Positions 58,191 through 60,246 of a stretch of 64,000 nucleotides of DNA are shown here, one piece after another. The stretch is from the NCBI GenBank assembly GCA_028284765.1, contig JANQRA010000002.1, positions 305,832-369,831 of the forward strand, given 5' to 3'. Source of the stretch: Acidimicrobiia bacterium. Lineage in GTDB: Bacteria; Actinomycetota; Acidimicrobiia; Spongiisociales; ZC4RG35. The position numbers and the translations under genes are program-made. The notes beneath the pieces were generated by a model. That model searched no databases and was not told the origin of the DNA. It worked only from the letters and a program-made list of their open reading frames with translations. Every line of letters begins with the position of its first letter. Within the stretch, counting starts at the first letter, position 1.

Positions 58191-58898
58191 ATGAACCCAA
58201 TCGTCGGAGTGACAACCTGGCGCCGTGAACTCAATACGTTCTACGGCCCCGAAGACCTCACGACTCTGTCGACGTTCTATACGGACGCCGCCATCGATGC
58301 CGGCATGGTTCCGATGCTGTTCACGCCAGCGTTGGATCCATCTGAAGCAGCAAGAGTCGTTTCATTGGTGGACGGTGTGATCTTGTCAGGAGGTGATGAC
58401 GTCGATCCGGCGTCGTATGGAGCTGAGCCAACTCACTCCAAGCACTTCTACAAAGACGTAGACGACTTCGAACTCGCCGTCGTTGAAGCTGCCCGGAATC
58501 AGAACAAACCCCTGCTCGCCATCTGCAGGGGTCTTCAGCTGTTGAATGTCGCGCTCGGCGGCACCCTGTCACAGGAGGTGACTGAGGCTGGTGGGACGCA
58601 TGAGCTGATCAGCACCGACCACATCGAAATGAACGCTCGGCGACACGTGGTGCACTTCGAGGAGGATTCGATAGTCGGTTCCATCTACGGCTCGTCTGAA
58701 GCCAAAGTCAACACCTTGCATCACCAGGGGGTGGACCGCCTAGCTGACGGGCTGATCGTCGAAGGCAGGACCGACGACGGTCTAGTCGAGGCGGCTAGAT
58801 GCGAAGGAAGCTGGTGGGCGGTCGGGGTCCAGTGGCATCCAGAGCGGATGGATGGTGACCACCGCAAGCTCTTCGAGGCGTTTCGGGACCAGCTCTAG
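58191..58898 (+). CDS. Gamma-glutamyl-gamma-aminobutyrate hydrolase-like (PuuD family, class I amidotransferase fold)
   Basis: Peptidase C26 family enzyme of 235 residues. Key parts are VDGVILSGGDDVDPASYG, the nucleophile Cys in LLAICRGLQLLNVALGG, NTLHHQGVDRLA and the catalytic His in GVQWHPERM. It hydrolyses gamma-glutamyl amides, releasing glutamate. ATG 58191 is chosen since the family's PIVGVT start follows at once. With the glutamine-synthetase-like ligase it could complete a tag-and-release cycle for amines. Its stop overlaps the arsR stop by 4 bp on the other strand. Confidence 0.87.
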   Translation: MNPIVGVTTWRRELNTFYGPEDLTTLSTFYTDAAIDAGMVPMLFTPALDPSEAARVVSLVDGVILSGGDDVDPASYGAEPTHSKHFYKDVDDFELAVVEAARNQNKPLLAICRGLQLLNVALGGTLSQEVTEAGGTHELISTDHIEMNARRHVVHFEEDSIVGSIYGSSEAKVNTLHHQGVDRLADGLIVEGRTDDGLVEAARCEGSWWAVGVQWHPERMDGDHRKLFEAFRDQL

Positions 58899-59221
58899 GC
58901 GGTGACCTTCGGACGCAGCGCGTCCGACAGTTCGGCAAGGCGATCTTCCACTACCCGATAGTGCACCCAGCGACCCTCACGTCTCCCTGACACGAGACCA
59001 GCCTCGCGCAACACCTTGAGGTGATGAGAGATCGTTGGCTGAGAGAGCGCGAGTGGATCCTCGAGGTCGCAGCCACAGCAGGAACCATCTGGGCTGGCCA
59101 TCAGGATTGAGAGGATTCGTAGTCGCACTGGATCGGCCAGGGCCGCAATCACCGGAGCCATCTCGGCAGCGGCTGCCTCGTCGATTGCCCCTTCGTGTAG
59201 CGCTGTGCAACAGGTTTCCAT
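58895..59221 (-). CDS. arsR: ArsR-family metalloregulator
   Basis: Winged-helix repressor of 108 residues. IAALADPVRLRILSILMASPDG and LALSQPTISHHLKVLREAGLVSGRREGRWVHYRV form the DNA-binding region. Cys are at 4, 5, 48, 49 and 51; CCGCDLEDP before the recognition helix matches the As(III)-sensing type (VCVCDL in close relatives). It is divergent from the 17-residue Cys-rich peptide gene across 71 bp holding an inverted repeat and its own promoter. No arsenite pump or reductase gene is visible beside it. Confidence 0.88.
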   Translation of the reverse strand: METCCTALHEGAIDEAAAAEMAPVIAALADPVRLRILSILMASPDGSCCGCDLEDPLALSQPTISHHLKVLREAGLVSGRREGRWVHYRVVEDRLAELSDALRPKVTA

Positions 59222-59257
59222 GGGTAGTTGACTTTAGACGACCTATCGACGATGATC

Positions 59258-59286
59258 AATATATCGAAGCTCATCGATATATCCAA
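59258..59286 (-). promoter_or_regulatory. arsR promoter with overlapping ArsR operator
   Basis: On the minus strand TTGGAT (-35, 59281-59286) and TATATT (-10, 59258-59263) are separated by exactly 17 bp. The spacer carries ATATCGA and its inverse copy TCGATAT (59261-59267 and 59274-59280 on the plus strand) around a 6-base centre. Repressor bound here would cover the arsR promoter and stand just before the peptide ribosome site. Confidence 0.7.
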
Positions 59287-59292
59287 GGAGGG

Positions 59293-59346
59293 ATGATGAA
59301 ACTTCGAACCGACGGCGGTTGTTGCGGCGGAGGCTGCAGCTGCTAG
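59293..59346 (+). CDS. 17-residue Cys-rich peptide under ArsR control
   Basis: MMKLRTDGGCCGGGCSC is encoded from ATG 59293 (or ATG 59296). A near-perfect ribosome site AAGGAGG (59285-59291) lies just before it, and the ArsR operator is immediately upstream. A long hairpin (59356-59389) lies shortly after the stop. Four Cys in the last eight residues (CC, C, C) with Gly between them suggest a metal or arsenite chelating tail. I know no named family for it. It is too short for most gene callers, but the signals before and after make it likely to be a real gene. It could also be a leader or a metal-storage peptide. Confidence 0.65.
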   Translation: MMKLRTDGGCCGGGCSC

Positions 59347-59355
59347 CTGAATAGG

Positions 59356-59389
59356 ACTGAGGCGCTGCTCAACCGAGTAGCGCCTCAGT
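59356..59389. terminator. Strong bidirectional hairpin after the Cys-rich peptide gene
   Basis: ACTGAGGCGCT (59356-59366) pairs perfectly with AGCGCCTCAGT (59379-59389); CTC and GAG in the 12-base loop can pair too. It overlaps the last codons of the convergent nuclease gene. There is no T-run, but the stem is long and GC-rich. Confidence 0.55.
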
Positions 59390-60139
59390 TGCTTGTCCCT
59401 CCTCACAACTATCGAGGATGGGGCAGTACTGACACCAAGGCCCTCCCCGCTTCGGCAGCTCCTCCGAGGTCGCCCAGGAGTGCCGCATGTCTCGAGCCAA
59501 CTCACTGACGTCCTCGGCGATCTGTTGCACATCGCCAGATGACGGCACCGTCGAGTAGCGCTCACCTGTCTTGACCGAGACAGCCTCAACCAAGCTGGGC
59601 AGCTCCTCTCGATCCAGTGCCCAAAGAAACGCATAGAAGTCGAGCTGCTCCTCGGCGTCGCCAAGCCCACCGGTCTTCCAATCCACCAGCCGATGACCCT
59701 CGCCGTCCTTGTAGATCGCGTCGACCACACCAACCAGTTTCAGACCGGCAGTCGTCTCGTGGTCGATGGTTACCTCCGAGCCGTCGAAGCCCTCACCGGG
59801 GAGCTTCGAGAATCGCTGATAGAGCTGCCTGACTTCCTCGATGACACCGGCCAGTTCAGACGGCTTGAGGAGTGAACCGACCTTGTGGTTCAGATTGGAG
59901 TTGCCGATCTCTTCGCGACACGCCTGGACGAAATCGTCGTCTGCGATAGGGCCCTTGCTGAGATGTCTGGCGAAAATCCGGTGGGCAAGAGAGCCCATGA
60001 AAGCTGGCCTCGAGTCAGGTGAGTAGTGACCCTGTAGACGTGCATTTGCACTCTCCGGGCACCTTTTCCAAGCCACATACGTTGTTGCCGAGACACGAAC
60101 CTGATCGCCCGGCGGAACATGCGGAATCGAAACTTCCAT
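59369..60139 (-). CDS. RecB-family PD-(D/E)XK nuclease with Fe-S cluster motif
   Basis: Nuclease of about 256 residues, similar in build to Cas4 or the AddB C-terminal domain. One Cys near the N-terminus (AWKRCPESAN) and three at the C-terminus in WCQYCPILDSC (C-x2-C-x5-C) are the four ligands of a 4Fe-4S cluster. GSLAHRIFARHL and the core VDAIYKDGEGHRLVDWKTG (Asp...Asp-x-Lys) give the active site, with a QLDFYAF motif after it. ATG 60139 is chosen; TTG 60169 is an alternative. It stands alone, without cas1/cas2 or recB-like helicase genes nearby. Confidence 0.85.
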   Translation of the reverse strand: MEVSIPHVPPGDQVRVSATTYVAWKRCPESANARLQGHYSPDSRPAFMGSLAHRIFARHLSKGPIADDDFVQACREEIGNSNLNHKVGSLLKPSELAGVIEEVRQLYQRFSKLPGEGFDGSEVTIDHETTAGLKLVGVVDAIYKDGEGHRLVDWKTGGLGDAEEQLDFYAFLWALDREELPSLVEAVSVKTGERYSTVPSSGDVQQIAEDVSELARDMRHSWATSEELPKRGGPWCQYCPILDSCEEGQATEALLG

Positions 60140-60246
60140 CACAATCGAGCGTATACCGAAAAAGATCAATCAAGGATTCATGAAAAGGTCGACCCGTCAT
60201 TACCATTCGTCCCTCACGGACCGGGTCAATTGGGGTGGCCCTCCCT

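Follow-up and report, generated by a model that had tools for sequence, protein, structure and literature searches.

A very small cysteine-rich peptide gene divergent from arsR in an Acidimicrobiia genome, with relatives at other actinobacterial arsR loci: a candidate ArsR-controlled mini-metallothionein

What does an ArsR-type repressor control when no other arsenic resistance gene stands beside it? The question is raised by an arsR gene of the window (the whole stretch of 64,000 nucleotides from an Acidimicrobiia bacterium analysed here), which lies on the minus strand at positions 58895 to 59221 and encodes a 108 amino acid repressor. Its membership in the ArsR/SmtB family is clear from matches above cut-off to the winged helix-turn-helix models Pfam HTH_5 (2.7e-16) and NF033788 (1.7e-28); the narrower NCBIfam model for Rv2640c-type ArsR (NF041413) gives 96 bits, below the required 155. 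Its neighbouring genes in the window (FAA hydrolase, peptidase C26, PDDEXK nuclease, VanW and pyruvate kinase) are not ars genes. An initial reading made from the sequence alone (below, the sequence-only reading) had remarked on the absence of the usual ars genes, and this is true of the surroundings of the peptide gene described below, but one ArsC-like gene is present on another contig of the genome. No match to Acr3/SBF or to ArsB was found genome-wide (genome G000 is 98% complete, so their absence is likely rather than certain).

Across a gap of 71 nt, arsR faces a tiny plus-strand ORF, MMKLRTDGGCCGGGCSC (59293–59346, ending with a TAG codon at 59344–59346). The sequence-only reading had drawn attention to this ORF and to its AAGGAGG ribosome site, and both are confirmed, the latter at 59285–59291. 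It had also given the product as 17 residues, which is indeed the length of MMKLRTDGGCCGGGCSC, but AAGGAGG is separated from the first ATG by a single nucleotide and from the second (59296) by four. The second is therefore the likelier start, which makes the 16-residue MKLRTDGGCCGGGCSC the more likely product. The inverted repeat ATATCGA-N6-TCGATAT that had been placed over the arsR promoter is perfect (ATATCGAAGCTCATCGATAT, 59261–59280); it covers the predicted arsR promoter (TGGATA-16-TATATT by consensus scan, minus strand, read from 59285 to 59258) and occurs in exact form nowhere else in the 2.9-Mb genome. A second ArsR-type operator, CTATCGACGATGATCAATAT (59243–59262), has two mismatches to this sequence and lies over the −10 element of the predicted peptide gene promoter, which appears to be sigma-70-like (TTGACT-17-GATGAT, plus strand, 59228–59256, with its elements at 59228–59233 and 59251–59256; 9 of 12 consensus positions match), so both predicted promoters are overlapped by operator boxes. 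When up to two mismatches are allowed, the window as a whole has three matches to the motif, where 0.04 would be expected. Following the peptide stop codon is a terminator-like stem-loop (59355–59390, plus strand; centroid −31 kcal/mol, z −4.6, no U-tract), whose stem has 16 bp and not the 11 bp first reported. It also spans the stop codon of the convergent, weakly Cas4-like PDDEXK nuclease gene (59369–60169). Because the hairpin follows the peptide stop codon and the next gene is convergent, the plus-strand transcript should encode little besides the peptide. A search of the genome for other operator-like sites gave one plausible candidate, ATATTGATGTGTGTCAATAT (G000:C9:16595–16614, locus L365), upstream of a gene resembling LLM-class flavin monooxygenases; this ArsR, or another one, may have a second target there.

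In its N-terminal cysteines the repressor resembles a known As(III) sensor. Its best match among solved structures is Corynebacterium glutamicum ArsR (6j0e, 3.5e-16), in which a type-3 As(III) site is built from Cys15 and Cys16 together with Cys55 of the other subunit (PMC11868830). Residues C4 and C5 of the window ArsR align with C15 and C16, and D45 aligns with C55, which means supposing a third ligand in a shifted position; C48, C49 and C51 are nearby, and our guess is that one of them serves. Residues C4, C5, C49 and C51 are invariant among the ArsR relatives. As(III) and Sb(III) are the likeliest inducers, with Cd and Zn as further candidates.

Are there similar genes at other arsR loci? 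The check suggested by the sequence-only reading, a survey of related loci for a conserved peptide frame, supports the proposal. A tiny cysteine-rich peptide gene of 11–28 residues, nearly always ending in CC, is present at 31 of about 256 distinct arsR loci, and many of the 31 are in genuine ars operons. The loci form a convenience sample in which relatives of the query are over-represented; beyond the window's order, peptide genes came from a scan of named genomes and then of 150 Microbacteriaceae and 198 Nocardioidaceae genomes. Twenty-five of the 31 genes lie within 250 nt upstream of arsR, four are just after arsC, and two more are in Nocardioidaceae; the hosts belong to the window's own order (Acidimicrobiia), the Microbacteriaceae and the Nocardioidaceae. 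The latter two names derive from genome G854, whose arsR is 100% identical to that of a Diaminobutyricibacter record, and from genome G900, which is that of Nocardioides sp. Root240. In the window's own family, the ORFs opposite the arsR orthologues (61–72% identical) have the tail of the window peptide (MRIHRQGSGCCDGGSGCCCC, MALHKEDSDCCGGGCCCC, MNEFDTGCCGGGSCC and MILLDDSNCCGGGDGIRCC) and the synteny with the PDDEXK gene is kept. From a second family of the order come MAPIKITGDAGGDDSDCCSGCGPGCC, MIGDPRALGGDGCCDSDCCGGGAGCC and MAPIEITGAAGETDSGCCSGCCGGSGCC, and examples from beyond the order are MNECCDPTVCPPGSEEYCGPGCC, MPDCCDPEEGCCELGCC, MTECCDTSCCTENCADGCICC, MAENECCDCCGCC, MDDCCTGTGCC and MDTCGCGCCGC. 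The peptides are made up mostly of Gly, Asp, Ser and Cys, with almost no His, and have 4–10 cysteines at variable spacing. One further candidate, at locus L146, proved to be the tail of an ArsD-like frame and was excluded from the counts. Six plasmid ars loci examined have no such peptide. A peptide HMM run over 395 genomes of the class found only arsR-linked cases and is insensitive, since it missed several known ones including that of the window, and a DNA pattern (operator, GGAG and Cys codons) run over 396 genomes of the phylum returned mostly chance matches. In genus g42 (L054 and L060) a different short ORF lies about 85 nt upstream of arsR (VKRFMVPRVAHCSDGCIPGSWA and VKRFMVPRTAHCSDGCQAMSWA); it has only two cysteines, is strongly conserved between the two genomes and is followed by a hairpin.

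Several features of these ORFs indicate, with high probability, that they are genes and not chance occurrences. A qualifying ORF is present within 250 nt upstream of arsR at 25 of 211 distinct loci, compared with 74 of 19818 positions drawn at random from the same loci (0.4%) and 10 of 6330 dinucleotide shuffles. Among 29 peptides, 174 cysteines fall in the peptide frame against 15 and 2 in the other two frames. The ratio pN/pS is below 1 in all 10 pairs compared (0.22–0.69; the pairs are not independent), and is 0.45 between the window gene and its relative in G012. Strong ribosome sites precede the related ORFs as well, most of the intergenic gaps, in fact nearly all, contain two operator boxes (the consensus was built from 63 sites), and hairpins whose sequences are unrelated to each other directly follow nearly all of the peptide genes. 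Several relatives have an in-frame stop codon 1–4 codons before the start, and their ORF is thus a unit of its own. As 26 of the 29 stop codons are TGA we also considered readthrough as selenocysteine, but three relatives, that of the window included, stop at TAG, and the sequences beyond the stop codons are unrelated between loci.

The gene is not a fixed companion of its repressor. The closest homologues of the window arsR (L002, L003 and L004 in genomes G013, G029 and G031; 71–73% identical) have lost the peptide, their gap has shrunk and they have no divergent target, so the peptide must be dispensable; these solitary arsR genes are apparently self-regulated. On a tree of 255 ArsR sequences the peptide trait needs at least 14 changes, and thus it has been gained and lost repeatedly.

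The surroundings of the relatives supply the arsenic context that is missing in the window's own lineage, where no other ars gene adjoins the peptide. In Actinomycetes the peptide gene in most cases lies within a real ars locus with arsC and often aqpS; it may be directly before arsC, directly after it (four loci), or divergent from an arsR-aqpS-arsC operon. In most Microbacteriaceae cases the promoter comes first, then the peptide and then arsC; the Nocardioidaceae have their ars genes on the arsR side and not behind the peptide. Genes for ArsI/CadI, Acr3 and ArsO were found at none of the 31 peptide loci (among the 256 distinct arsR loci, L146 excluded). Fisher tests, which ignore shared ancestry, give 5.7e-6 for ArsI/CadI, 3.7e-4 for ArsO and 1.6e-3 for Acr3, the last with L146 included; the lone Acr3 case in the tally is this same L146, the ArsD false positive. 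ArsI/CadI is the usual divergent gene at the site that the peptide occupies, and its protein has a tail bearing a Cys pair in 77 of 78 cases, with a CC end in 41. The peptide thus looks like a free-standing version of the ArsI/CadI tail, and it is possible that it descends from a lost ArsI.

Taking from the sequences the gene, its frame-specific conservation, its operators and the ars context of its relatives, we infer that the peptide is translated, that the repressor answers to a metal or metalloid inducer, and that the peptide binds metal and gives some benefit against arsenic. The explanation we favour, and consider probable though well short of secure, is that this is a mini-metallothionein induced by As(III) or another soft metal under ArsR control, a functional analogue of smtB-smtA. 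ArsR without ligand would sit on the two operators in the 71-nt gap and repress both itself and the tiny gene. Once its cysteines bind a metalloid or soft metal, with As(III) and Sb(III) the likeliest ligands, it would leave both boxes, and a short transcript would then be made that carries one 16-residue peptide behind a strong ribosome site and ends at the hairpin. The peptide would remain unmodified, its Cys pairs holding the metalloid through thiolates as an expendable sink. In the related ars operons it would be made together with ArsC, which reduces As(V) to As(III), and often with AqpS, taking the place of Acr3 or ArsI/CadI; it would buffer the As(III) made by ArsC at loci that have ArsC and no Acr3, and the hairpin between the peptide gene and arsC could hold peptide mRNA above arsC mRNA. 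The central idea of the sequence-only reading, a gene-encoded Cys-rich binder of metal or metalloid under ArsR control, is thereby supported, in that the frame, Cys pairs, ribosome site and operators recur at 31 arsR loci.

How does this arrangement compare with known systems? In the smtB-smtA divergon about 100 bp with one or two inverted-repeat operators separate the two genes (PMC8790569, PMC7387436), and the present locus likewise pairs an ArsR/SmtB-family repressor with a small Cys-rich gene in divergent orientation, the short gap between them holding inverted-repeat operators. However, SmtA is a folded zinc protein with His ligands, whereas the present peptides have 11–28 amino acids and almost no His, and the peptide-linked repressor has N-terminal Cys pairs like those of As(III) sensors and not the SmtB sites. 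The system would therefore resemble smtB-smtA in operation and lie outside any known metallothionein sequence family so far as matches could be found: 10 relatives scanned to an E value of 1 have no Pfam or NCBIfam match (the window peptide is below the 20-residue limit), and a PDB search with one relative gave nothing meaningful. In composition the peptides do resemble metallothioneins, being short and rich in Cys (174 of 609 residues, or 28.6%, in the 29 peptides) with Cys motifs and few aromatic residues (3 of 609). Phytochelatins and the fungal mini-metallothioneins are likewise short thiol-rich binders of metals or metalloids without aromatic residues, the former made non-ribosomally and the latter CxC-type copper proteins of about 25 amino acids. 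The ArsI/CadI VOC proteins (NF041414) share the divergent site, the operators and a C-terminal tail that often ends in CC, but they have a complete VOC enzyme domain where the peptide is a tail-like stretch only. ArsD also has vicinal Cys pairs near its C-terminus; it is, however, a protein domain that works with ArsA, and the peptide loci yielded neither ArsD nor ArsA.

Among other functions, the peptide could be an arsenite metallochaperone or thiol partner that passes As(III) on to an exporter in the manner of ArsD, or gives electrons or thiols to ArsC, instead of storing the metalloid. Its co-occurrence with arsC and aqpS and a Cys-pair spacing resembling that in the tails of ArsD (L146) and ArsI/CadI are in keeping with such a role, but the gene has neither exporter nor reductase beside it in the window's order, an Acr3 or ArsA partner is present at 0 of the 31 loci, and the variable number (4–10) and spacing of the cysteines fit a sink better than a docking partner, and so we think this unlikely. 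More doubtful still is a Cys-responsive leader peptide, in which ribosomes stalling at Cys codons would sense depletion of thiols or cysteine and set readthrough of the hairpin into arsC. The usual Microbacteriaceae gene order and the strong hairpin after the stop codon would suit an attenuator, and polycysteine leader ORFs, also tiny and rich in Cys codons, are known from mycobacteria, likewise Actinomycetota (Canestrari et al. 2020, as cited in PMC9031893). Those, however, are leaderless attenuators before downstream genes, whereas an untranslated leader and a ribosome site precede the present ORFs; moreover, a convergent gene comes next in the window and its relatives, no regulated gene stands behind the window's peptide, arsC is downstream in only part of the relatives, the peptide follows arsC in four loci, and the Nocardioidaceae ars genes lie with arsR and not behind the peptide. 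It is very improbable that the gene encodes a RiPP precursor, modified by enzymes to a metal-binding or antimicrobial product: the sequence-only reading had entertained a substrate for modification, for which a short Cys-rich gene would be suitable and an enzyme could act in trans, but products of 11–17 residues leave no room for a leader and no maturase was found among the neighbours of the loci examined. Least probable of all is that there is no gene, only an open frame that arose by chance in a GC-rich gap, or else a small RNA under ArsR control; for although the ORF is very short, has neither annotation nor peptide data behind it and in the window continues a frame open by chance for 92 codons upstream, the roughly 30-fold enrichment over the control, the confinement of Cys to one frame, the low pN/pS and the upstream stops of the relatives all speak against it.

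Few bacterial metallothioneins are known, and ars operons are usually seen in terms of reduction, efflux, methylation or oxidation. If the mini-metallothionein explanation is correct, a gene-encoded thiol sink of 11–28 residues under ArsR would add sequestration to these functions, and the peptides would probably rank with the smallest metalloid binders that bacterial genes encode, their genes with the smallest functional ones in bacteria. Sensors and clean-up could then draw on short As(III)-binding sequences that exist already, and the case would illustrate how short genes are overlooked in well-studied operons. We see about an even chance that they form an undescribed class of ribosomally made arsenic-binding micropeptides, free-standing counterparts of the ArsI/CadI Cys tails, that belong to the regular equipment of ars loci in several lineages of actinobacteria, replace Acr3 efflux or ArsI/CadI as the output of ArsR, and have been missed because gene callers skip such short ORFs. 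A literature search, mostly within papers open without subscription, found no description of ArsR-linked peptides of this kind.

Homologues of this arsR can also have another divergent neighbour. In two genomes of the window's order an arsR of this family is divergent from selD (L013:344–1396, minus strand; L009:1907–2947, plus strand), which encodes a selenoprotein SelD (TIGR00476, E about 1e-118) with an in-frame UGA in its active-site motif SHGSG-U-ACK; this arrangement possibly links arsenic sensing with selenium supply.
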